From Roseomonas alba (GTDB lineage Bacteria; Pseudomonadota; Alphaproteobacteria; Acetobacterales; Acetobacteraceae), in assembly GCF_019430885.1 (NCBI RefSeq), contig NZ_JAHYBZ010000001.1, positions 868,001 through 932,000 of the forward strand: 64,000 nucleotides of DNA. The letters run 5' to 3'. The stretch's first letter is position 1. The number at the start of each line of letters is the position of its first letter. The position numbers and the translations under genes are program-made. The notes beneath the pieces were generated by a model that was not told the origin of the DNA, did not search any database, and saw only the letters and a list, made by a program, of their open reading frames with translations. Shown piece by piece: positions 23,784-35,058 of the stretch.

Positions 23784-26297
23784 ATGTGCGAGGCCGAGGA
23801 ATCGTTGCCGCCGGGCTTTTACGACCAGCCGGTACTGGTGGTCGACCTCGGCGCGCACACCGCGATTATCAAGCGAGCCGACGTGGACGCCGCGGGGCGC
23901 TTCGCCGTTACCGGCTCCGACGACAAGACGGTGCGGGTCTGGTCGCTGGCGGATGGCGCGTTGCTGCGGACCATCCGCCTGCCCGCCGGGCCGGGCCATG
24001 TCGGCAAGGCCTTTTCGGTCGCCATCGACCCGGCGGGGGAGATCATCGCCGTCGGCGGGTGGACGGAGGCGTCGCCGACGGAAGGCATCTACCTCTACGA
24101 CCTCGCGACCGGCGCGCTGCGGCAGCGGATCGGCGGGCTGCCGGAAGTGGTCCTCCACCTCGCCTTCGGGCCGGGCGGGCGGCATCTGGCCGCGACCCTT
24201 GGCAGGTCGAACGGCCTGCGCGTCTTCGATTGCGACCAGGGTTGGGCGGAGGTCGCGCGCGACTCGGACTATGGAGAAAGCAGCTACGGCGCCGCCTTCG
24301 CGCCCGATGGGCGCCTCGCCACCGTGAGCCATGACGGGCAGGTGCGGCTCTACGGGGCGGATTTCCGCCGCCTGCACGCCACCCAACTGCCGGATGGCAG
24401 CCGCCCCTTCGGCATCGCTTTCTCCTCCTCGGGGCAGCGCCTCGCCATAGGCTTCACCGACAGCACAGCAGTCGCGCTGCTGGACGGGCGCAGCCTAGCG
24501 CCGCTGTACGAGGCGGCGAGCGCTGGGATCGACAATGGCGAGCTATGCACTGTCGCCTGGGCGGCGGGGGTCCGGCTGCTCGCCGCCGGGCGCTACCAGC
24601 ACCGCGGAGGTGGTCCGGTGGTGACCTGGGCTGACGGGGGGCGCGGCGCCCCCCAACTGATCGCCGAAGCGCAGAACACGGTGATGAGTCTGCTCCCGCT
24701 ACCGGGCGGTGACATTCTGGTCGCGGCCCAGGACCCCTTCCTCGGCCGCTTCGGCCCGGCCGGGGAGGTGCGCTGGACGGTGCCGTCGCCGGTGGCCGAT
24801 CTGCGCGAGCAGCAGGCGAGCCTCGCCGTCGCCGTGGATGGCACGACGGTCGATTTCGGCTTCGAGGGCGGGGGTGAGGCGCCGATGCGCTTCGACATAG
24901 GCCGACTGGCGCTGACTCTGGCGCCGTCGGCGGATGGCTGGGCCGCCAGGCCCCGCCAGCAGGGGCTGCCGGTCGCCGACTGGGAGAACAGCACCTGCCC
25001 CACCCTCGCCGGCGCGCCCCTGCGGCTCGAGCCCTACGAGAAATCGCGCAGCCTCGCAATCCATCCCGACGGGCGCCGCTTTGTCCTCGGCAACGAGTGG
25101 TCGCTGCGTGCCTTCGACGCCTGCGGCACGCCGCTCTGGCGCCAGCGCGCGCCCAGCGTCGCCTGGACGGTGAACGTCACCGGCGACGGGCGCCTCGTGG
25201 TCGCGGCCTACGGCGACGGCACCATCCGCTGGCACCGCATGGATGACGGGCGGGAAATCCTCGCCTTCATGCCACTGCTCAACCGCCGCGACTGGGTCGC
25301 CTGGACGCCGGAGGGCTTCTTCGCCGCCAGTCCCGGCGCTCATGGCGTGCTGCGCTGGCATGTGAACCAACCCGGCTGGCAGCCGGCGCGGGAGTTCGCC
25401 GTCGCCGACATCCCCGGCTTCCACCGGCCGGAGGCGATCCGGCTGGTGTTGCAGGAGATGGAGACGCCGCGCGCCATCGGCCTCGCCATCGTAGCCGAGC
25501 AGCGGGAGAAAGTGCGGCTACTGACCAACAGCCGCCTGCCGCCGGGGGCGCGGCTGCATGTTGTCGCCGTAGGCATCAGCGAATACGACCCCGAGACCGC
25601 CGCGCATCTGCGGCTCCGCTTCGCCGACCACGACGCGCATGACGTCATGTCCGCCCTCGCCGGCACCCAGGGCGCGCTCTACGCACCCGGCTATCGCGAG
25701 ACGCCGCGCAACGAAGACGCCACCGGCGAGATCATCCTGCGCGCGCTGGCAAACATGCAGGCCGCGACGCAGTCGGGCGACCTCGCCGTCTTCCACTTCT
25801 CCGGCCATGGCGCGCGCATCGGCGAGAAGCTCTATCTGCTGCCGCGCGACGTCCGGCCCGGCGATGCCGTTGCGTTGCAGCGCAGTGCCTTGCCGATCGG
25901 CGATCTGCGCGACGCGCTAATGAGGATCGCCGAGCGGGGCCGCGTGCTGGTGCTGCTCGATGCGTGTTATTCCGGCGGCGCCTCGCTCGATGGCGGCGCG
26001 CAGCCAGCTGCCTCCCGCGTCCTCAGCACCGCGCTGGCGGCGGCCAATATTTGCGTGCTGACGTCCTCCTCCGGCTCTCAGGCTTCGCGCGAGGACCCGG
26101 CGTGGCAGAATGGGGCCTTCACCGAGGCGGTGCTGGAAGCGCTGGGTGCGGCCGACACCGACCATGACGGCCTGATCAGCGCGACCGAACTCGCCCGCTA
26201 TGTCGATCGGCGCGTGCGGAACCTGACGAACGGCGCCCAGGAGCCCGGGATCGAACTCCGCTTCGACGGCACGCTCTTCGCCGTCCCGCTGCGCTGA
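23784..26297 (+). CDS. caspase-family (C14) protease with N-terminal WD40-type beta-propeller
   Basis: 837 residues. The first 560 or so form a beta-propeller with repeated WD-like blades (AVTGSDDKTVRVWSLADGAL, ATVSHDGQVRLYGADFRRLH, VVAAYGDGTIRWHRMDDGRE). After a helical linker comes a caspase/p20-like domain: RLHVVAVGISEYD near residue 590, catalytic histidine H675 in HFSGHGA and cysteine C728 in LLDACYSGG. Near the end D791-E802 (DTDHDGLISATE) fits the EF-hand calcium-loop pattern DxDxDGxIxxxE. Cytoplasmic, no signal peptide. Such proteins are known or suspected in bacterial signalling and abortive defence; the target is unknown. Cotranscribed with the small gene upstream. Confidence 0.9.
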   Translation: MCEAEESLPPGFYDQPVLVVDLGAHTAIIKRADVDAAGRFAVTGSDDKTVRVWSLADGALLRTIRLPAGPGHVGKAFSVAIDPAGEIIAVGGWTEASPTEGIYLYDLATGALRQRIGGLPEVVLHLAFGPGGRHLAATLGRSNGLRVFDCDQGWAEVARDSDYGESSYGAAFAPDGRLATVSHDGQVRLYGADFRRLHATQLPDGSRPFGIAFSSSGQRLAIGFTDSTAVALLDGRSLAPLYEAASAGIDNGELCTVAWAAGVRLLAAGRYQHRGGGPVVTWADGGRGAPQLIAEAQNTVMSLLPLPGGDILVAAQDPFLGRFGPAGEVRWTVPSPVADLREQQASLAVAVDGTTVDFGFEGGGEAPMRFDIGRLALTLAPSADGWAARPRQQGLPVADWENSTCPTLAGAPLRLEPYEKSRSLAIHPDGRRFVLGNEWSLRAFDACGTPLWRQRAPSVAWTVNVTGDGRLVVAAYGDGTIRWHRMDDGREILAFMPLLNRRDWVAWTPEGFFAASPGAHGVLRWHVNQPGWQPAREFAVADIPGFHRPEAIRLVLQEMETPRAIGLAIVAEQREKVRLLTNSRLPPGARLHVVAVGISEYDPETAAHLRLRFADHDAHDVMSALAGTQGALYAPGYRETPRNEDATGEIILRALANMQAATQSGDLAVFHFSGHGARIGEKLYLLPRDVRPGDAVALQRSALPIGDLRDALMRIAERGRVLVLLDACYSGGASLDGGAQPAASRVLSTALAAANICVLTSSSGSQASREDPAWQNGAFTEAVLEALGAADTDHDGLISATELARYVDRRVRNLTNGAQEPGIELRFDGTLFAVPLR

Positions 26298-26492: not shown

Positions 26493-27398
26493 ATGGACGG
26501 GGGATGCATGCGACTCGCACTTGCGCATGACGATGAGGTGGCAAAGCGCCCGATCTTTCCGCGGATGGAGATTGGCGCTTACGAAGAGATGTGGTTGGAG
26601 CATAACGCCACCTTCAAGAGCATCGCAGAGCGTTTCGCATCTGATCTCGAAGCCATGCCGAGTGACTTTGTTCCTTCGGCCGTTGCGCGACAGCGGGCGG
26701 ATGAGGTGTTCGCCAAGCTCAAGGCGGACGGGGTACATCGTTTTGGCGTGCGGATTCACCATGCGGGCGATTACCCAATGAAGCTAAGGGATGCGAAGCA
26801 TCCCATCGAGTTGTTGTATTACAGGGGCGTCTGGGAACTCGCCGAAACCCGATGCGTGGCCGTTGTTGGAAGCCGCGAAGCTTCCGTCGACGGGTTAGCG
26901 CGTGCGCGCCGGTTAGCGCGCGAGTTGGTGACGAAGGGTTTCACGGTGGTATCCGGCTTGGCTGCTGGAATCGACCAAGCCGCGCATCGCGGAGCGCTCG
27001 AAGCTGAAGGCAAGACGATTGCTGTTGTGGGAACTCCACTCGGGCGGGTCTATCCAAAGGAACACTATGACCTGCAGGAGCGCATTGCCGAGCATCACTT
27101 GGTAATCTCCCAAGTGCCAGTGCTCCGTTACGCTCGACAGAACTTTCGTATGAATAGGCTGTTCTTTCCAGAGCGCAATGTGACGATGAGTGCTCTTACC
27201 GAAGCCACGATTATTGTGGAGGCGGGCGACACGTCCGGAACGTTGACCCAGGCCCGGGCGGCGCTTCACCAGGGCAGGAAGCTGTTTATCCTCGACTCAT
27301 GTTTCAGGCGACACGACCTGACCTGGCCCGCGCGATTCGCAGAACAGGGAGCCATTCGGGTTCAGGGTCCTGAGGACATTTGGCACCACCTTGGCTGA
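26493..27398 (+). CDS. island DprA-like (SLOG-fold) protein
   Basis: 301 residues with the DprA Rossmann core: CVAVVGSREASVDGLARARR near residue 124, FTVVSGLAAGIDQAAHRGAL near residue 150, AVVGTPLGRVYPKEHYDLQE, and SGTLTQARAALHQGRKLFIL. The N-terminal 110 residues differ from housekeeping DprA and the C-terminal winged helix is absent. The final codons overlap the following phosphoribosyltransferase gene. Codon use and base composition are more AT-rich than the neighbours, which suggests recent transfer. SLOG proteins can sense or process nucleotides; a role in nucleotide-linked immunity is inferred, not shown. Confidence 0.88.
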   Translation: MDGGCMRLALAHDDEVAKRPIFPRMEIGAYEEMWLEHNATFKSIAERFASDLEAMPSDFVPSAVARQRADEVFAKLKADGVHRFGVRIHHAGDYPMKLRDAKHPIELLYYRGVWELAETRCVAVVGSREASVDGLARARRLARELVTKGFTVVSGLAAGIDQAAHRGALEAEGKTIAVVGTPLGRVYPKEHYDLQERIAEHHLVISQVPVLRYARQNFRMNRLFFPERNVTMSALTEATIIVEAGDTSGTLTQARAALHQGRKLFILDSCFRRHDLTWPARFAEQGAIRVQGPEDIWHHLG

Positions 27399-28011
27399 CA
27401 TTAGGCTCCGCTCTATTGACGATTCGAACCGCGGCGATCACTCGCTTCTGCGAGAAACTGATCGCTGTTGGTTTCTCTACGAATACACGTCGGGAATGAC
27501 TTTCTCGTTCGGGGAGGCGAACAGCTTAATTTCGAACTTGAAGAAGCCTATGGACCGACGTGGACGGCCGGAGTTTGTCCACAAGGCACGAGCGATCCGA
27601 CAAGCAAGCGAAACGCTTCGGCAGACGCTGAATCCGGTCTTCTTGAGGCAGGGGACGTTGGTGCCGATTCCGCCTTCCAAGTGTCGGGCTGATCCTCTCT
27701 ACGATGATCGGGTCCTTCAGATTTGCCGGGGCATCGGGCAGCAATGCGATGTACGAGAACTTGTTGAGCAGAAATTAAGCATTCGAGCGGCGCATGAAAG
27801 TGAAGGAAATCGACCTTCCCCACGGGAGCTGGCAGACAATTATGTAATCAATGAAAATCTCTGCGCTCCTGCTCCTGTGTTAATTGCTATAGCGGACGAT
27901 GTTTTAACTGCGGGTTCTCACTTTCGAGCGATGTGTATGGTTCTTGGTGCGCGCTTTCCTGGTGTTCCAATCCATGGTCTGTTCGTCGCTCGCCGCGTCT
28001 TTGCCTCGTAG
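27391..28011 (+). CDS. phosphoribosyltransferase-like protein paired with the DprA-like gene
   Basis: 206 residues; start TTG 27391 inside the end of the DprA-like gene (8-bp overlap), so the two are translationally coupled. A PRPP-binding loop is visible as VLIAIADDVLTAGSHFRAMC near residue 164, and GTLVPIPPSKCRADPLYDDR near residue 90 resembles the ComFC/PRTase N-terminal segment. The substrate pocket is not identifiable. Pairing of a SLOG/DprA-like protein with a PRTase suggests a nucleotide-salvage or nucleotide-signal module; this is inference. Low GC like its partner. Convergent with hxsA. Confidence 0.8.
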   Translation: MADIRLRSIDDSNRGDHSLLRETDRCWFLYEYTSGMTFSFGEANSLISNLKKPMDRRGRPEFVHKARAIRQASETLRQTLNPVFLRQGTLVPIPPSKCRADPLYDDRVLQICRGIGQQCDVRELVEQKLSIRAAHESEGNRPSPRELADNYVINENLCAPAPVLIAIADDVLTAGSHFRAMCMVLGARFPGVPIHGLFVARRVFAS

Positions 28012-28016
28012 CTACC

Positions 28017-28640
28017 TTAGCAACCTACGCCGAGCCCTGCCAGCGTCCCATTGTCCAGAACACCGCTCTGGGGTAGTCGCCGAGATTGTTGGAACCGGCG
28101 CAGCGCTGTGCCCATGGCCGGCGACATGATCCCATCCACCGGTCCGTTGTAGAAGCCGCGGGCGCGGAGTTCGACCTGCGCCCGCATGGCGACGATGAGG
28201 CCCTCGGTACTTGCGCAACCTGGCACGGCGCCCGGGGTGCCGCGTGACCCCGTCGAGCCGGATGATCCGCTACGCGGGGCCGGTGAAGCGGGTGCCTGTT
28301 GGGGCGTGCTCGGTGATGGGGCCACGTAGGAAGGCGGCGGGGTGTAGGTTCGCGGGGCAGAGTAGCCACCGCCGCTGCCCGAGTAGTGACTGGAGTGGCT
28401 GCGGTGGCTGGAATGGCTCCGATGGCTGCTATGGGCGGCGAATTGGTCCGGGCCGTCGATGCGGTTCGGGAGTTCCATCACGAAGCCATCGGGGCGCTCT
28501 GGATCGCCGGAGCGCATGCCTGCGGGCGCGCCGGCCATGGCGGCCTCATGACCTCCGAGAGGGGCTGCGGCGACGCCGGGTAGCAGCCGGTAGAGCAGCC
28601 GTGCCAAGCGGCTCAGGGCGCCTGTCTCGTCATCGTGCAT
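28017..28640 (-). CDS. hxsA: His-Xaa-Ser repeat protein HxsA
   Basis: 207 residues, the presumed substrate of the HXS system. Residues 70-87 contain six consecutive His-Xaa-Ser units (H70, H73, H76, H79, H82, H85: HSSHRSHSSHRSHSSHYS). A Gly/Ser/Pro-rich linker follows (residues 88-140), and residues 143-205 look like a peptidoglycan-binding-1 domain (VELRARGFYNGPVDGIMSPA, LRRFQQSRRLPQSG). No signal peptide is seen. Its start overlaps the hxsC end by 11 bp. Known of the family: HxsA occurs with two radical-SAM proteins thought to modify the repeats. The modification is unknown. Confidence 0.92.
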   Translation of the reverse strand: MHDDETGALSRLARLLYRLLPGVAAAPLGGHEAAMAGAPAGMRSGDPERPDGFVMELPNRIDGPDQFAAHSSHRSHSSHRSHSSHYSGSGGGYSAPRTYTPPPSYVAPSPSTPQQAPASPAPRSGSSGSTGSRGTPGAVPGCASTEGLIVAMRAQVELRARGFYNGPVDGIMSPAMGTALRRFQQSRRLPQSGVLDNGTLAGLGVGC

Positions 28641-29835
28641 GTGCTGGTTCCGGCGTCTCGTTCGTCACCGGCCTGATGTCCGTGCCGCGCCATGAGGCGT
28701 CGGCCGACAGGAAGAAGCCGGCGCAGGCATCGCGCACGCTGCAGCCTTCGCATTCGGGCGCGTGGACCTGCTTCCAATCGCTGATGCTCCGCCGGGCGAG
28801 CGGCCACATGTCTCGAGGCAGCAGGCAGAGCGGCGTGTTGTAGATCGACACGGCCATGCCGCGTGTTGCGAGGTGGCGTGCAGCATCGGCGATCGCACGC
28901 GCAGCTTCCGCCGGCTCGATCCAGAGGACATCGCGGTTTCGCCGCGCCAGGCCCATCGGCTCCAGGCCCATGAGCGCGACGTGCTCCGCGAAGGGCAGGT
29001 TCCGCCAGACGAACTCAGCGAAGCCCATGATGCGCGGCACGGTAAGGGCATGGGCAACGAACCGGACCTCGATGCGATGACCGGCCTCGGCGAGATTGTG
29101 GATGCCCTCCAGCGCCTCCTCGAAGCTGCCTGGCGCCTGCACCACCTGATCATGCCGCGCCGCCGTGTCGGCGTAGATCGGCACCGCCCACGTCGTGCGG
29201 CCGCGGCCCGCCGTCACGGCCGTCACCATCCGTCGATCAGCGAAGCGTCGGCCATTGGTGAGGATGTGCAGGTGCGTGTCGGGCAAATGCTCGGCCGTGC
29301 CGACGAGGATGCGGGTCAGGCCTTCGCCCAGCAGCGTCGGCTCGCCGCCCGTGATGCCGAGCACGGGCAGGTTGCGGTCGATAAGCGGCAGCAGTTCCAG
29401 CGCCTCGGCGACGCGCCAGGAATCATCCTCATTACGCGGCGGCTGGCTGCACATCAGGCACAGGCTGTTGCAGCGCTCGGTGACGAAGAGCGAATTGCTG
29501 TCGGCGCCGCGGCGATAGAGCACACCGATCCTGCCGGTGCGGGCGGTCACACCGATCACGTCGCCCGCGGCCACAACGTCATTGCGGCGAAGGCCGGCGA
29601 AGATCGGCAGGGCAGCACCTGGACCCCGTGAGTCGGCTGTTAGGGCAGCTGCGAAGCCAAGCGCGTGGAGAGCACCCAGGTCCACGCCGCCGACGGGATC
29701 ACTGCGGAGGTCGATGGCCACCCGATCGAAAGGCAGCTCGGTGGTGAGCGCGTCAGCGAGGGGCAGCACCTTCAGCGGGTGCGGTGCGGCGAAGTCGCCG
29801 GATAGCGTGCCGAATGTATGCAGGGGCAGGCTCAT
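28630..29835 (-). CDS. hxsC: HXS-system radical SAM protein HxsC
   Basis: 401 residues. The CxxxCxxC cluster for a 4Fe-4S/SAM centre is C122, C126, C129 (ERCNSLCLMCSQPPRNEDD), followed by LGITGGEPTLLGEGLTR. A C-terminal cysteine group CEGCSVRDAC suggests a further iron-sulfur site. I take ATG 29835, which overlaps the hxsB stop as ATGA; a start at 29871 would add 12 residues inside hxsB. Acts in the cytoplasm, presumably on HxsA. Middle gene of hxsB-hxsC-hxsA. Confidence 0.9.
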   Translation of the reverse strand: MSLPLHTFGTLSGDFAAPHPLKVLPLADALTTELPFDRVAIDLRSDPVGGVDLGALHALGFAAALTADSRGPGAALPIFAGLRRNDVVAAGDVIGVTARTGRIGVLYRRGADSNSLFVTERCNSLCLMCSQPPRNEDDSWRVAEALELLPLIDRNLPVLGITGGEPTLLGEGLTRILVGTAEHLPDTHLHILTNGRRFADRRMVTAVTAGRGRTTWAVPIYADTAARHDQVVQAPGSFEEALEGIHNLAEAGHRIEVRFVAHALTVPRIMGFAEFVWRNLPFAEHVALMGLEPMGLARRNRDVLWIEPAEAARAIADAARHLATRGMAVSIYNTPLCLLPRDMWPLARRSISDWKQVHAPECEGCSVRDACAGFFLSADASWRGTDIRPVTNETPEPAHAR

Positions 29836-31397
29836 GCTGCCGCCTCGGGCCGGAGCCGCTGCGTTCCCCATCGCGTCAACAGGGCCTGTTTCTCGAGCGG
29901 GCCGTCGAGCAGCAGCCCGAACAGCAGATGGAAGAGGCCGGTGTGCCGCCGGCAGAAGTCGCTCGGCTGGCGATCGGCGCGCACGTGGCCCTGCGTTGCG
30001 TAGTGGTGGACAGGGTCACTCCCGCAATAAGGGAGGAATGCGCAGTCCCGGCAGCCTGGCAGGTCTTCCGCCACGCCGCCGGTGGCGATGAGCCGCATGG
30101 CGTCGGACGCCATCAGGACGGGCAGGGGATCGCGCACGGTGCCCATGCGGAAGGCGGGATCGCCGGCCGCCGCCAGCATGCGGCCCTCGTCGCTCGCATA
30201 GACCCCGCCGTCATAGTCATAGGCCAGGACACCGAGCCCGGCGCCGGCGGGGCTCCGCAGATCGACATAGCCGGAGTGGAACGGCGTCAGGATGTGGGTC
30301 AGCAGGATCGCGGCATAGGCCTCTTCGGCCTCAACGCCCTGCCGGTTCCACCAGAGAATTCGATCAAGGGCCCGACGATAGAAGGCCTGGAAGGCATCCA
30401 TGTCGTAGCCGGTGCGGCGTGCGGATCGCAGCGCGAAACCATAGGGGCTCAGCGGCCGGAGGAAGACGGACGGGAAGCCAGCGCCGATCAGCGCGTCAAC
30501 GATGCCTTCGGGATGGTGGAGACCGCGCCGCGTGACGGTGGTGATCGCAGCCACGTTTGCTGCGCCGATGACGCGGCGGGCAAGGGCCACGCCTTCCATG
30601 GTGCGGCGATGCGCATCGGCTCCCGGTAGGGGCCGATTGGCGTTGTGGATGTCCTCGGGCCCGTCGATCGAGGCCGAGACCTGGAAGCTATGCTCGGCAA
30701 GGAACGCCGCGATGTCATCGGTGAGGTGATGAAGCGTGGACGTGATGCTGAAGGTCACGCGACGGTCGGGTGCGCGTCGGCGGATCGTCTCGACCACCAG
30801 CTTGATGATGTCGAAGCCGAGCAGCGGCTCGCCGCCCTGGAACTCCACGGTGAGCGCCGCGGCGTCGCTCTCCAGGATGCGCTCCACGGCATGGAGCGCC
30901 GTCTCGGGGCTCATGTCGAAGCTGTCGGCACCGATTGGACGGCGCGAGACCTGACAGTAGAGGCAGCTCTGGTGGCATCGGAGCGTCGGCACCAGGATGT
31001 GGAGCGCCGGGCCCTGTTGAACGAAGGCCTTCTTCGTGCGGACTTTGGTCGCCAACAGGCGCAGCGCTACCTCGGGCCGGCCAGCGAGCAGCAGGTGACG
31101 GGCCACCAGGTCGTCATAGGCTGGGCTGTCGGGAGTGAGGCGCCCGGCGGCGAAGGTGGCGAAATCAGCGCGGTCGAGCGCCATGAACTCGCCGGCGTCG
31201 TTGGTGACCAGCACCTGGGCACCATCGCCAAGCGCGACGACGCGGTGGGGTAGCGGCGCGCCCTTCTCGACGCGCGGAATGTTGGGCGCGGTGCGACCGA
31301 ATGCCGCTTCCATGACCGCAGCTCGGAACAAATGCTCGGCGGCACTTCCCGAGACATCCAACTCGGCAACGGCATGGTCTCGGGCCACGACATTCAT
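29832..31397 (-). CDS. hxsB: HXS-system radical SAM maturase HxsB
   Basis: 521 residues. An N-terminal part (residues 1-125) carries VLVTNDAGEFMALDRADFAT, typical of peptide maturases that recognise a substrate. The radical-SAM cluster is C141, C145, C148 (LRCHQSCLYCQVSRR) followed by VEFQGGEPLLGFDIIK. The C-terminal SPASM-like region has cysteines in GCRDCAFLPYCGSDP and a later DFCRRH, which may ligate auxiliary clusters. First gene of the operon; an 8-codon GTG frame (31420-31394) with a GGGAGGGG site overlaps its ATG (ATGA). No hxsD-like gene is seen before it. Confidence 0.92.
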   Translation of the reverse strand: MNVVARDHAVAELDVSGSAAEHLFRAAVMEAAFGRTAPNIPRVEKGAPLPHRVVALGDGAQVLVTNDAGEFMALDRADFATFAAGRLTPDSPAYDDLVARHLLLAGRPEVALRLLATKVRTKKAFVQQGPALHILVPTLRCHQSCLYCQVSRRPIGADSFDMSPETALHAVERILESDAAALTVEFQGGEPLLGFDIIKLVVETIRRRAPDRRVTFSITSTLHHLTDDIAAFLAEHSFQVSASIDGPEDIHNANRPLPGADAHRRTMEGVALARRVIGAANVAAITTVTRRGLHHPEGIVDALIGAGFPSVFLRPLSPYGFALRSARRTGYDMDAFQAFYRRALDRILWWNRQGVEAEEAYAAILLTHILTPFHSGYVDLRSPAGAGLGVLAYDYDGGVYASDEGRMLAAAGDPAFRMGTVRDPLPVLMASDAMRLIATGGVAEDLPGCRDCAFLPYCGSDPVHHYATQGHVRADRQPSDFCRRHTGLFHLLFGLLLDGPLEKQALLTRWGTQRLRPEAAA

Positions 31398-31449
31398 TCC
31401 GCGGCAGAGCCGAGTTTCACGTCAACCCCTCCCTGCCTGAATGCGCGCG

Positions 31450-31478
31450 ATGATTGTATTAGATCGCTAAGTAATCAT
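31450..31478. promoter_or_regulatory. nested dyad upstream of hxsB, possible operator
   Basis: ATGATT (31450-31455) with AATCAT (31473-31478), and inside it TTAG-ATCG-CTAA (31459-31470). It is AT-rich against a GC-rich background and lies about 55-80 bp before the hxsB start, in the 155-bp gap after dnaE2. It could instead be part of a terminator for dnaE2. Confidence 0.4.
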
Positions 31479-31552
31479 CCTGCCAGAGCGACATGAGACG
31501 ACGCAAGAAGACATTGGCCGTTCTCTGGCCGCGCGGCCGCTTTCTCCAGCCA

Positions 31553-34500
31553 TCATCGGAAATCCCGTGTCGGCGGCATTCGAATGGGCCGCGACTTGTC
31601 CGACGGTGCCACCTCGTCGCCGATCCCCATCGAAGACAACGTATCCAATAGGTCCGACCGGTCGATCAGGCGCCCTGCGATCAGGTGCACAATCGGCACC
31701 TCGGCGTGCTGATCCTCTCGCTCCACGCGGCCTTCCACGATCACAAGGCGCGAGGTCAGCAGTGGGACGCGGTACCGTTCCGACACGCGGGCATAGACCA
31801 CCACGTTGGCCTGGCCATGCTCGTCCTCGATGGTCACGAAGATCACGCCCTTCGCCGTCATCGGCTGCTGGCGCATCAGCACCAGCCCGGGCACGCGAAC
31901 CCGGCGGCCCGATAGCGCCCGCGCCAGGGCGCGGCTGTCGTCGCAGCGCAGGCGTGCCAGGACAGGCCGCAGCAGTGCCAGCGGATGCCGGCGAAGGGTC
32001 AGGCCGGCGCTGACATAGTCCAGCGCGATCGCTTCGCCTTCCTTCATCGCCGGCAGGGCGGGGTCGGCCTCGGGGATCAAGGGGCGGACCTCCGGGTGGT
32101 CGGCCTGCACCGCCTCGCGGAACAGCGGCAACCCAGCAGCAAGCCCGGGGTCCACGGCATGAGAAGCCCAGGCGGCCTCGCGCCGGCCCAGGTCGAGCCC
32201 GGCGAAAGCGTCAGCACCGGCCAGCGCCTCGATGGCCCGCCGGGGCAGGCCGGCACGTAGCGCCAGTTCCCCCACTGATCCGAACGGCGCGCCGTTGCGG
32301 GCTGCGCGCGCCTTCACCAGTGCCCGGCCGGCCTCCTCCTGCATGCCGGAGACCATGCGCAGGCCCAGCCGCAGCGCGTGGCGGTCGGCGCTGGCCGCGT
32401 CTGGCTCGAGGGAGCAATCCCAATCGCTGTCGTTCACGCTGATCGGGCGCACCGCGACCCCGTGCTCCCGCGCATCCCGGACGATCTGGGCCGGCGCGTA
32501 GAAGCCCATGGGCTGGCTGTTGAGCAGCGCGCAGGCGAAGACCGCGGGGTGGTGGCATTTCAGCCAGGACGACGCATAGACGAGATGCGCGAAGCTGGCG
32601 GCGTGGCTCTCCGGGAAGCCATAGCTGCCGAAGCCCTCGATCTGCTTGAAGACCCGCTCCGCCATCTCCAGCGAGTAGCCCCGCCGGACCATCCCGCTGA
32701 CCAGGCGGTCGCGATAGGCGCCGACGCCCTGGGTGTATTTGAAGGTCGCCATGGCGCGCCGCAGCGCATCGGCCTCTTCAGGCGTGAAGCGCGCGGCGAC
32801 GATGGCCAGCCGCATCGCCTGTTCCTGGAACAGCGGCACGCCGAGCGTGCGCCCCAACACCTGGCGTAGTTCGTCCGGTGGGCCGTGCTCGGGGGAGGGA
32901 CCCGGATACTCCGGTTCCTCGAGGCCCCACCGCCGGCGGATGTAGGGATGGACCATGTCGCCCTGAATCGGCCCCGGCCGCACGATCGCCACCTGCACCA
33001 CCAGGTCGTAGAACTCGCGGGGCCGCAGCCGCGGCAGCATCGCCATCTGCGCCCGGCTCTCGACCTGGAACACGCCGAGGGAATCCGCGCGCCGGAGCAT
33101 GGCGTAGGTCTCAGGGTCATCCCGTGGCACGCTGGCGAGATCGAGCGCCACATGCCGGTGCTGGCGCAGCAGGTCGAAGCCGCGCCGCAGGCAGGACAGC
33201 ATGCCGAGGCCGAGCACATCGACCTTCAGGATGCCCAGCGCTTCCACATCATCCTTGTCCCATTCCAGCACGGTGCGGCCCGGCATCGCGGCATTCGAGA
33301 CCACGGCAAGCTCCACCAGCGGCCCGCGCGTGATGACGAAGCCGCCCACATGGGTGGCGAGGTGACGGGGGAAGTTCTGAATCTCGTCCGCGAGGTCCAC
33401 CGTCATGGCGAGCCGGGAGTCGGTGGTGTCGAGGCCGCTGGCCTGCGCGATGTCACCGAAGCTGCGATCCGAGCCGGGGCCCCAGGCTGCCTTCGCGAGC
33501 TTGCCGGTCACGTCCTCTGACAGGCCCATTGCCTTGCCCACTTCCCGGATCGCGCTCCGGGCGCGATAGCGGATGACGGTGGCGACGATGGCGGCGCGGT
33601 CGCGGCCATAGCGGTCGTAGATGTGCTGGATCACCTCCTCCCGCCGCTCGTGCTCGAAGTCCACGTCGATGTCGGGCGGTTCGTCGCGAGAGGCGGAGAC
33701 GAAACGCTCGAAGAGCAGGTCATGCTTCGCCGGGTCGACGGCGGTGATACCGAGCACATAGCAGACGGCGGAATTGGCGGCGCTGCCGCGCCCCTGACAG
33801 AGGATGCCCTTCGACCGCGCGAAGCGGACGATCTCATGCACGGTGAGGAAGTAGGGCGCGTATCCAAGCTGCTCGACCAGCGCGAGCTCGTGGTCCAGGC
33901 GGGCGCTGATGTCCCCCGCCACCCCCTGCGGCCAGCGTTCCGCCACCGCCTCCGCGACCCGGGCAACCAACGTCTCCTGCGCGGTGCGGCCCGGCTCCAG
34001 CACCTCCTCCGGGTATTCGTAGCGAAGCTGGTCCAAGCTGAAGCCGCGCGTGGCATCGAGGATCTTCAGGGAGGCCGTCAGGGCGTCAGGATGGCGTTCG
34101 AACAGGGCCGCCACCTCGGCGGGCGACTTCAGCCGGCGTTCGGCGTTGGGGGCTGCCGCGAAGCCGATCTGATCGACCGATGTGCGCAGGCGGATCGCGG
34201 TCAGCACGTCCGCCAGGCGACGCCGCTCGGCGGCATGGTATCGCGGTGCGGTGGTGGCCAGCAGGGGCACGCCGGCCGCTGCGGCTCGATCGAGGCGCCG
34301 CCGGTCGCCGCCATCCATGACGCACGGCACCGCGCAATGCAGCGGCAGAGGAAGACGATGGTCCAGCGCCTCCGCGTCCGCGCGGAGACGAGCCCCGAAG
34401 TCTGCCGAGACGACAGAAGGCGCGACCAGCGCGACCGCTGACCCTTCGGCGGCGCCCAGCAGGTCGGCCCGGCTGATCCGGCACTCACCCTTTGGTGCCA

Positions 34501-34804
34501 GGGTGCGGCCCCGGGACAGCAGGGCGGTCAGCCGGCCGTAGGAGGCACGGTCGGTGGGCCAGACCAGGTATTCGCCCCCATCGTCTACCAGGACCCGCGC
34601 ACCGACCGCGAAGGACAGGCCGAGCTCCTTGGCGGAGACGTGGGCCTGCACCACGCCGGCAAGCGTGTTGGTGTCGCAGATGCCGAGGCCGGCCTGGCCG
34701 AGCGCGGCTGCCTGCGCTGCCATCTCCGAAGGGTGGGAGGCACCGTCCAGCAGGCTGAAGTTGCTCTTGGCGCACAGCTCGGCGAAGGCGGGGCCGGCCG
34801 TCAC
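31553..34804 (-). CDS. dnaE2: error-prone DNA polymerase DnaE2 (ImuC)
   Basis: C-family polymerase used in SOS-induced translesion synthesis. 1083 residues from GTG 34804, the expected length. PHP-type N-terminus (SNFSLLDGASHPSEMAAQAA, ICDTNTLAGVVQ), then the catalytic palm with GRGSAANSAVCYVLGIT and IDVDFEHERREEV near residue 400, and a C-terminal OB domain (RVPGLVLMRQQPMTAKGVIF). The usual partners imuA and imuB are not next to it; only a small unknown gene precedes it, with an SOS box upstream of both. It probably functions with chromosomal ImuB, or is SOS cargo of the island. Confidence 0.95.
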   Translation of the reverse strand: MTAGPAFAELCAKSNFSLLDGASHPSEMAAQAAALGQAGLGICDTNTLAGVVQAHVSAKELGLSFAVGARVLVDDGGEYLVWPTDRASYGRLTALLSRGRTLAPKGECRISRADLLGAAEGSAVALVAPSVVSADFGARLRADAEALDHRLPLPLHCAVPCVMDGGDRRRLDRAAAAGVPLLATTAPRYHAAERRRLADVLTAIRLRTSVDQIGFAAAPNAERRLKSPAEVAALFERHPDALTASLKILDATRGFSLDQLRYEYPEEVLEPGRTAQETLVARVAEAVAERWPQGVAGDISARLDHELALVEQLGYAPYFLTVHEIVRFARSKGILCQGRGSAANSAVCYVLGITAVDPAKHDLLFERFVSASRDEPPDIDVDFEHERREEVIQHIYDRYGRDRAAIVATVIRYRARSAIREVGKAMGLSEDVTGKLAKAAWGPGSDRSFGDIAQASGLDTTDSRLAMTVDLADEIQNFPRHLATHVGGFVITRGPLVELAVVSNAAMPGRTVLEWDKDDVEALGILKVDVLGLGMLSCLRRGFDLLRQHRHVALDLASVPRDDPETYAMLRRADSLGVFQVESRAQMAMLPRLRPREFYDLVVQVAIVRPGPIQGDMVHPYIRRRWGLEEPEYPGPSPEHGPPDELRQVLGRTLGVPLFQEQAMRLAIVAARFTPEEADALRRAMATFKYTQGVGAYRDRLVSGMVRRGYSLEMAERVFKQIEGFGSYGFPESHAASFAHLVYASSWLKCHHPAVFACALLNSQPMGFYAPAQIVRDAREHGVAVRPISVNDSDWDCSLEPDAASADRHALRLGLRMVSGMQEEAGRALVKARAARNGAPFGSVGELALRAGLPRRAIEALAGADAFAGLDLGRREAAWASHAVDPGLAAGLPLFREAVQADHPEVRPLIPEADPALPAMKEGEAIALDYVSAGLTLRRHPLALLRPVLARLRCDDSRALARALSGRRVRVPGLVLMRQQPMTAKGVIFVTIEDEHGQANVVVYARVSERYRVPLLTSRLVIVEGRVEREDQHAEVPIVHLIAGRLIDRSDLLDTLSSMGIGDEVAPSDKSRPIRMPPTRDFR

Positions 34805-34812
34805 GGAAGGGG

Positions 34813-35058
34813 CTATCCGGCGCTGTGCGGGGCGCCGGTGCGGCGCTTGAGAACGACGAAACCGGCCCGTTCTAGGTGCTCTACGAGCCGCTCGGCGGCG
34901 ATGGCCGCCGCGAATTCCCAACCGCCCGATCGTGGCCGGCCGCGCTCATCAAAGCGCAGGGCATAGGCCAGGGATTCCGCGACCTCACCGGGGCTGGCCG
35001 GGGCGAGGGAAGCGGTCGCTGCGGGGATCGGTGGGATGGCGAGGGGATCGGCGGACAT
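34813..35058 (-). CDS. small protein upstream of dnaE2, SOS-linked
   Basis: 81 residues from ATG 35058 (MSADPLAIPPIPAATASLAP). The N-terminus is Ala/Pro-rich; the rest ESLAYALRFDERGRPRSGGW-EFAAAIAAERLVEHLERAGF ends VVLKRRTGAPHSAG. Its stop is 8 bp before dnaE2, so they share a transcript. It is not ImuA or ImuB. Function unknown. Confidence 0.75.
   Translation of the reverse strand: MSADPLAIPPIPAATASLAPASPGEVAESLAYALRFDERGRPRSGGWEFAAAIAAERLVEHLERAGFVVLKRRTGAPHSAG

Follow-up and report, generated by a model that had tools for sequence, protein, structure and literature searches.

A His-Xaa-Ser maturation operon in Roseomonas alba in which hxsD is not found

In a 64,000-nucleotide stretch of the Roseomonas alba genome (assembly GCF_019430885.1, contig NZ_JAHYBZ010000001.1, positions 868,001 to 932,000; hereafter the window, whose numbering is used throughout), the genes hxsB, hxsC and hxsA lie in that order on the minus strand, from 31397 to 28017. 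They belong to the His-Xaa-Ser (HXS) system, which Haft and Basu 2011 reportedly described as hxsD-hxsB-hxsC-hxsA (NCBIfam TIGR03976/77/78/79). The features of the locus, including two maturases of the radical S-adenosylmethionine (SAM) type, their putative substrate and one short open reading frame (ORF), are as follows (aa, amino acids).

29832..31397, minus strand: hxsB, a 521 aa radical SAM/SPASM-type maturase with C141-C145-C148 and the invariant cysteines C449, C452, C458 and C482.
28630..29835, minus strand: hxsC, a 401 aa radical SAM maturase with C122-C126-C129 and the invariant cysteines C337, C362, C365 and C371.
28017..28640, minus strand: hxsA, a 207 aa putative substrate with a possibly signal-like N-terminus (about residues 11-32), a His-Xaa-Ser tract and a PG_binding_1 domain.
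28380..28433, minus strand: six in-phase His-Xaa-Ser units, HSSHRSHSSHRSHSSHYS, HxsA residues 70-87.
31398..31552, minus strand: the 155 bp gap between dnaE2 and hxsB, the expected position of hxsD, in which no reading frame gave an HxsD match.
31394..31420, minus strand: a GTG-initiated ORF of 8 codons (VKLGSAAE*) after the Shine-Dalgarno-like GGGAGGGG, its stop overlapping the ATG of hxsB.

A preliminary description of the window, made from the sequence without database searches, had named the three genes hxsB, hxsC and hxsA, and all three products score above the curated NCBIfam cut-offs (HxsB, TIGR03978, 522.3 bits against 370; HxsC, TIGR03977, 358.7 against 267.9; HxsA, TIGR03979, 129.1 against 121.65). 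By these curated models the identification of the genes as a genuine HXS operon is supported. The coordinates, frames and CxxxCxxC motifs starting at C141 and C122 given in that description were verified, as was the translational chaining: the hxsB stop overlaps the hxsC start in an ATGA at 29835 (the ORF list has a longer hxsC start, at 29871), and hxsC and hxsA overlap by 11 bp. The radical SAM and auxiliary-cluster cysteines are intact in both maturases, in that all cysteines invariant in alignments of HxsB (n=35) and HxsC (n=34), those listed above, are present in the window proteins. The six His-Xaa-Ser (HxS) units and the peptidoglycan-binding-like domain seen in the third protein also stood, the latter being PG_binding_1 (PF01471) at residues 154-201 (E 9.3e-12), and a chance run of three or more HxS units occurred in 0 of 20,000 shuffled HxsA sequences.

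The description had further noted that no hxsD was visible and that the 155 bp before hxsB left no room for one, and our searches agree. Two HxsD profiles gave no match at E<=5 among the six-frame ORFs (>=20 aa) of a 16 kb region that includes the operon. The whole-genome search that it had proposed was likewise empty: TIGR03976 matched nothing in the genome at E<=0.001 or at E<=1, and neither did our own profile A1, at E<=1, which was built on 28 of 30 profile-detected HxsD sequences (L001 and L139 left out). Across the 10 whole genomes searched with A1, the HxsD of one genome outside the training set (G1139) was recovered at 8.7e-25 beside its hxsB and that of an HxsD-bearing near relative (G922) at 1.6e-22, while R. 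alba (G000) and a second genome, G231, gave nothing at E<=1. Because HxsD (TIGR03976), which from the TIGRFAM text we take to be the fourth member of the system, is not found beside the window hxsB, we file the locus as an HxsD-less variant and not as a typical member. An all-against-all comparison of ORFs of at least 40 aa in the window, Roseomonas plasmid and G231 loci, the three clear HxsD-less cases, yielded no shared replacement gene, the matches being the hxs genes, their shadow ORFs and a few weak ones elsewhere. The 8-codon ORF before hxsB is possibly a leader that couples translation or possibly a relic of hxsD.

The remark in the preliminary description that HXS loci often include hxsD proved to be an understatement. 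We assembled 43 loci, some of them near copies, from the window, 18 plasmid and 22 whole-genome loci, and L001 and L031, these two being taken from a contig scan whose 53 loci were nearly all distant radical SAM proteins; viral contigs held 2 distant radical SAM loci and nothing closer. An HxsD profile was built from 14 seeds, and L031 was searched with this first profile, the other loci with two later ones as well. The first profile detects HxsD in 30 of the 43 (E<1e-8), encoded upstream of hxsB in the same orientation and starting no more than 0.8 kb from the HxsB match. Seven more loci (L060, L144, L145, L146, L147, L151 and L159; the rhizobial type) have a short unannotated ORF at the HxsD position. 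A profile from an alignment of six of them then matched the seventh (L060), on which it had not been trained, at 2.6e-19. Profile-profile comparison relates the group to HxsD (P 1.1e-4, probability 57%); the pattern R-x-x-I-x-x-E-T-x-x-x-R, found in the last helices of HxsD, lines up between the two, and NCBIfam recognises none of the three members tested. HxsD or its remote relative is thus found upstream of hxsB in 37 of the 43 loci. The six with neither type are the window, two Roseomonas plasmids with an identical hxsC protein accession (L054 and L162), the G231 locus (L133), and L153 and L031, both divergent and of doubtful membership.

In 17 genomes with an HxsB match (R. alba included; 16 above the curated HxsB cut-off and G324 just below it) TIGR03976 found HxsD beside hxsB in 11, with one weak match on another contig, and in six further HxsB-matching genomes (four above cut-off) it did so in four. 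The resulting figure of 8 of 23 genomes without an adjacent HxsD was wrong, since five of the negatives (G675, G624, G352, G324 and G774) hold a remote HxsD upstream of hxsB; it was corrected to 3 of 23 (G000, G231 and G770), and TIGR03976 alone was rejected as proof of absence. Annotation was rejected as a guide as well, the profile-found gene being a "hypothetical protein" in L056, L154, L155 and L163 and no gene being listed at the HxsD site in L058 and L061, where the plasmid gene table is incomplete. As to what HxsD is, searches for a fold or an RRE identity returned no significant solved relative, and no Pfam family matched more than one of the 28 HxsD sequences.

The rapid divergence of HxsD lends some substance to the idea that a diverged copy is supplied in trans from another site in the genome, given that the rhizobial type escaped TIGR03976, and NCBIfam in the three cases tested, and was tied to HxsD through profile-profile comparison alone. 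However, the HxsD genes of all 30 profile-positive loci keep the same strand and close upstream position relative to hxsB, and those of the nearest HxsD-bearing relatives stood out clearly in the A1 search that was empty for R. alba and G231, so that we consider supply in trans improbable.

Comparison of gene order with relatives, another check that the preliminary description had suggested, placed the same hxsB-hxsC-hxsA order without hxsD on the Roseomonas mucosa plasmid p2-HV1 (NZ_CP034926.1), on a second Roseomonas plasmid and in G231. A maximum-likelihood tree was computed from 40 HxsB sequences (omitting L152, whose HxsB is split over two frames, the partial L031, and L162, a near copy of L054; rooted for drawing purposes only), and it unites the window, Roseomonas and G231 in a single clade (support 100/99). 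Its sister is the HxsD-bearing pair L149/L150 (96/94), and all of these fall within a clade of 11 sequences that is otherwise HxsD-bearing (95/91). As the three HxsD-less lineages are one clade nested among HxsD-bearing systems, hxsD was probably lost once, and a single secondary loss is the simplest reading; that the gene was lost secondarily at all is, judging from these sequences, very likely.

The system is sparsely distributed. With R. alba itself counted, HxsB scores above cut-off in 3 of 299 and 4 of 397 genomes of the family (overlapping draws), 6 of 385 of the class and 14 of 398 of the phylum. R. alba is the sole carrier among 35 genomes of its genus, and G231 the sole carrier among 15 of its own. 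Upstream of hxsB lies dnaE2 (31553-34921, minus strand), for an error-prone polymerase, of which a second copy, 65% identical, is found on another contig (G000:C4). Among the 35 genus genomes, R. alba included, two others (G1042 and G104) match the window copy of dnaE2, at 84-85% identity, and toward hxs their resemblance to the window stops within the 3' end of that gene; HxsB was found in neither. That the similarity of these congeners ends in dnaE2 and that they have no HxsB indicate an operon either acquired or patchily kept.

With a widely kept gene gone and a single carrier in the genus, it might be asked whether the operon is a degenerate passenger, dead without hxsD. We regard this as extremely doubtful, because open frames (HxsB and HxsC at 60-64% protein identity), the invariant cysteines, the tract and the gene order have been kept in all three lineages of the clade, which is not expected of a dead operon. 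Another thought was that part of HxsD survives within HxsB, the N-termini of which are longer in the window, Roseomonas and G231: the C-terminal helix of HxsD would be fused to this extension. By eye the case is appealing, with R-x-x-[IV]-x-x-x-A-[FL] common to the three N-termini and in register with the last HxsD helix. Moreover, hhalign selects exactly that segment, and in Roseomonas HV1 the RefSeq start of HxsB lies 50 residues ahead of the first aligned position. However, the statistics do not bear it out, since the best-window score against a matrix of the HxsD helix gave p = 0.39 (window), 0.10 (Roseomonas) and 0.02 (G231) on shuffling, the hhalign profile-profile comparison gave P = 0.22 and a probability of 0.3%, and RefSeq gives HxsB a shorter start in the second Roseomonas plasmid. 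We therefore rejected the fusion, which seems very unlikely.

The presumed target of the two maturases is the HxS tract. Tracts were located by the pattern H.S in runs of at least three units, and were found in 40 of the 43 loci before redundancy removal, with none within 6 kb in L001, L153 and L159. In 34 non-redundant tracts (leaving out the near copies L162, L139, L142, L149 and L160 and the divergent L031) the length is 5-8 in-phase units and the middle position takes ten residue types, the fixed His and Ser being partly a matter of definition because the search itself used them. The tract is very probably the modified site.

The preliminary description stated that HxsA has no signal peptide, and this is doubtful. 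Many relatives' HxsA N-termini are short and basic and then hydrophobic, some with an A-x-A-like end (by eye), and the window N-terminus matches these signal-like N-termini in position, as does a segment of G231 HxsA, RLLYRALPGLAIAPFGFGAAHA, that resembles a signal peptide (by eye). The window protein nevertheless has the weakest hydrophobic core of the 17 compared (12-residue mean 1.42, against 1.53-2.09 in the 16 others, with starts picked by hand). Two cysteines (C142 and C207 in the window) bracket the peptidoglycan-binding domain in all three HxsD-less lineages and were not seen in other HxsA proteins (by eye); a disulfide between them, if formed, would fit an exported HxsA. On balance we lean toward HxsA being exported. 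A single-sequence structure model of HxsA (mean pLDDT 48.3) was too poor for use.

With regard to the chemistry, the closest solved sequences to HxsB are 5wgg (7.3e-28), which we take to be CteB, and an anaerobic sulfatase-maturating enzyme (1.3e-24); HxsC is closest to SkfB. Sulfatase-maturating enzymes oxidise Ser or Cys and are not known to form cross-links. The main rival to a cross-link is that HxsB, working like such an enzyme, converts the Ser of each HxS unit to an aldehyde (formylglycine), perhaps for reaction with the His or for metal binding. Its appeal is that enzymes of this kind are the second-best solved match of the HxsB profile and that the tract offers a Ser at every third residue. 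Ser oxidation would, however, leave the His at i-2 and the strict period of three unexplained, and HxsB matches other peptide maturases about as strongly, so we think it unlikely, although it is the chief competitor.

The chemistry that we prefer, tentatively and at somewhat less than even confidence, is an i/i+2 cross-link in which a C-C bond would join the His imidazole to the Ser beta carbon at position i+2, giving a three-residue cyclophane six times over; this is a prediction drawn from analogy. In the portions consulted of PMC11002830, radical SAM enzymes are described that form i/i+2 cross-links between Phe and Ser (MscB) and from His C2 to a beta carbon (HaaB and YhhB). H-x-S unites the Ser of the former with the His of the latter, hence our preference for a bond from His C2 to the Ser beta carbon. 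HxsB itself scores well below the cut-offs of the cyclophane-former models (AmcB, 62.1 bits against 425; YhhB, 51 against 445; GrrM/OscB, 40.7 against 310; FxsB, 38.2 against 370). Because of this distance, and because some thioether-type models score higher, the analogy is that HxsB may work like these enzymes, not that it is one of them.

Taken as a whole, we think it slightly better than an even chance that this is an HXS maturation operon whose hxsD was lost once in its clade and in which HxsB and HxsC modify the HxsA tract without it. In the cytosol the HxsA precursor would be bound by HxsB and HxsC and its six triads modified; the product would then be exported and anchored to the peptidoglycan through its C-terminal domain, and HxsD would be a non-catalytic helper, for instance in precursor binding, that is dispensable in this clade. 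Several points weigh against this account. The window, G231 and both sister sequences are among seven in the HxsB tree flagged for unusual amino-acid make-up, which may have distorted the precise sister relationship, although Roseomonas, the third lineage of the clade, carries no such flag. The rhizobial-type HxsD of G675 is missed by both TIGR03976 and A1, and this blindness leaves room for a very divergent HxsD in trans. HxsB matches nif11-type (84.2 bits) and thioether-forming PapB (78.3 bits) models, both below cut-off, better than any cyclophane former (62.1 and less), and sulfatase-maturating enzymes are among its nearest solved relatives.

The surroundings of the operon include genes of anti-phage defence. 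A ShosA/ShosT pair (26493-28011, plus strand; PADLOC 1.1e-94 and 2.8e-43) is separated from the end of hxsA by 5 bp, and the G+C content drops to 54.6% at 27-28 kb, compared with 62-73% in neighbouring kilobases, which points to a separate origin. Beyond it, an 837 aa WD40-repeat protein (23784-26297, plus strand) has a C-terminal caspase domain (PF00656, 8.2e-16; PADLOC caspase, 7.2e-8). The hxs proteins themselves are not recognised by a PADLOC defence model beyond weak viperin matches of HxsB and HxsC (E 1.7e-5 or weaker), and HxsA has no match.

For 15 other hxs loci from whole genomes, we compared the ORFs lying up to 6.5 kb away with those of 15 control regions of the same genomes (out of 16 retrieved, L219 being left out). 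The sets comprised 106 of 168 ORFs near hxs and 103 of 130 control ORFs, hand-picked before scanning and mostly of at least 400 bp; individual PADLOC scans covered 20 of the 106 hxs-side ORFs, and the counts of hxs loci are lower bounds. At E<=1e-15, 118 PADLOC families were matched near hxs and 5 in the controls, the former number being inflated by redundant models (two proteins match 36 families each), and counting loci instead leaves a weak contrast, with matches at no fewer than 7 of 15 hxs loci and no more than 6 of 15 controls. With the threshold tightened to E<=1e-50, a choice made after the data had been seen, the counts are at least 5 of 15 against 0 of 15 (Fisher p 0.042, or 0.10 without the L148 methyltransferase, which is possibly of prophage origin). 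These five loci hold PDC-S65 (L137), Thoeris (L138), a retron-type reverse transcriptase (L145), the methyltransferase (L148) and Gabija GajA (L151), and the hxs flanks also include PtuB at L137, an AriA-like ATPase at L138, an Old/AriA-like protein at L167 and an HNH protein at L135. A strong ThsB match (4.2e-179) on the hxs side was not assigned to a locus. Random regions are a lenient control, given that accessory genes are often found among defence genes, and we regard the defence-gene neighbourhood of some hxs loci as a lead, not a function.

Other neighbours recur or stand out as well. A DUF4236 protein lies near hxs in L060 (where it is annotated), L133 and L167, with two Pfam matches and with similar N-termini in L133 and L167, and an AAA/ATP-binding protein and an S8 peptidase lie side by side near hxs in two separate plasmids, L154 and L159. 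Downstream of hxsA in G231 (L133, 2578-6541, minus strand) are three genes on one strand whose products resemble (by eye) a von Willebrand-type domain protein, a PP2C phosphatase and a kinase-like protein, and PP2C_2 matches 2 members of the hxs-neighbour protein set. A broader joint reading would hold that HxsD is near-universal in HXS loci once the remote rhizobial type is counted, and that HXS loci are mobile envelope modules residing in defence islands and serving conflict between bacterium and phage or between bacteria, with HxsA cross-linked into a rigid rod, exported and attached to the wall, and HxsD an adaptor dispensable in this clade; we put this forward as a long shot.

HXS genes have been an annotated system for years. 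The consulted parts of earlier papers call HxsB and HxsC putative maturases (PMC9062424) or list hxs genes as an annotation or a putative system (PMC8446631, PMC6537148), and among the matches listed, drawn mostly from outside subscription journals, no title or abstract reported a characterised HXS product or function or an HxsD-less form. An operon of three genes free of HxsD would be the simplest version to express, and its comparison with a four-gene relative bears on the role of HxsD. Should the six triads prove to be cross-linked in succession, a wall-binding protein would carry a long, stiff rod made by the ribosome, and the defence neighbours at some loci are a first testable hint of HXS function.

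Compared with the HXS system as reportedly first defined, the window locus shares HxsA, HxsB and HxsC above their cut-offs, the HxS tract and the B-C-A order, and differs in that hxsD was not found. The R. mucosa p2-HV1 and G231 loci resemble it most closely, in gene order, in having no hxsD found, in HxsB at 62-64% identity over the aligned part and in the cysteine pair around the peptidoglycan-binding domain, but in the stretches compared they have no other genes in common with it, and the HxsB extension differs in length and sequence. HXS variants with HxsA2 (hxsA2-hxsD-hxsB-hxsC) have the same maturases and tract, but there a short HxsA2 is encoded upstream, with the tract at its C-terminus and no peptidoglycan-binding domain. 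The triceptides (MscB, HaaB and YhhB), as described in the consulted part of PMC11002830, have in common with the window locus a SPASM-type radical SAM maturase and, so far as tracts located by the pattern H.S can show it, the i/i+2 spacing with an aromatic-type first residue; in contrast, the window HxsB lies far below the cut-offs of those families, two radical SAM enzymes are present and the repeat substrate is set inside a larger protein. The window locus is a real HxsD-less variant of the known, uncharacterised HXS system.

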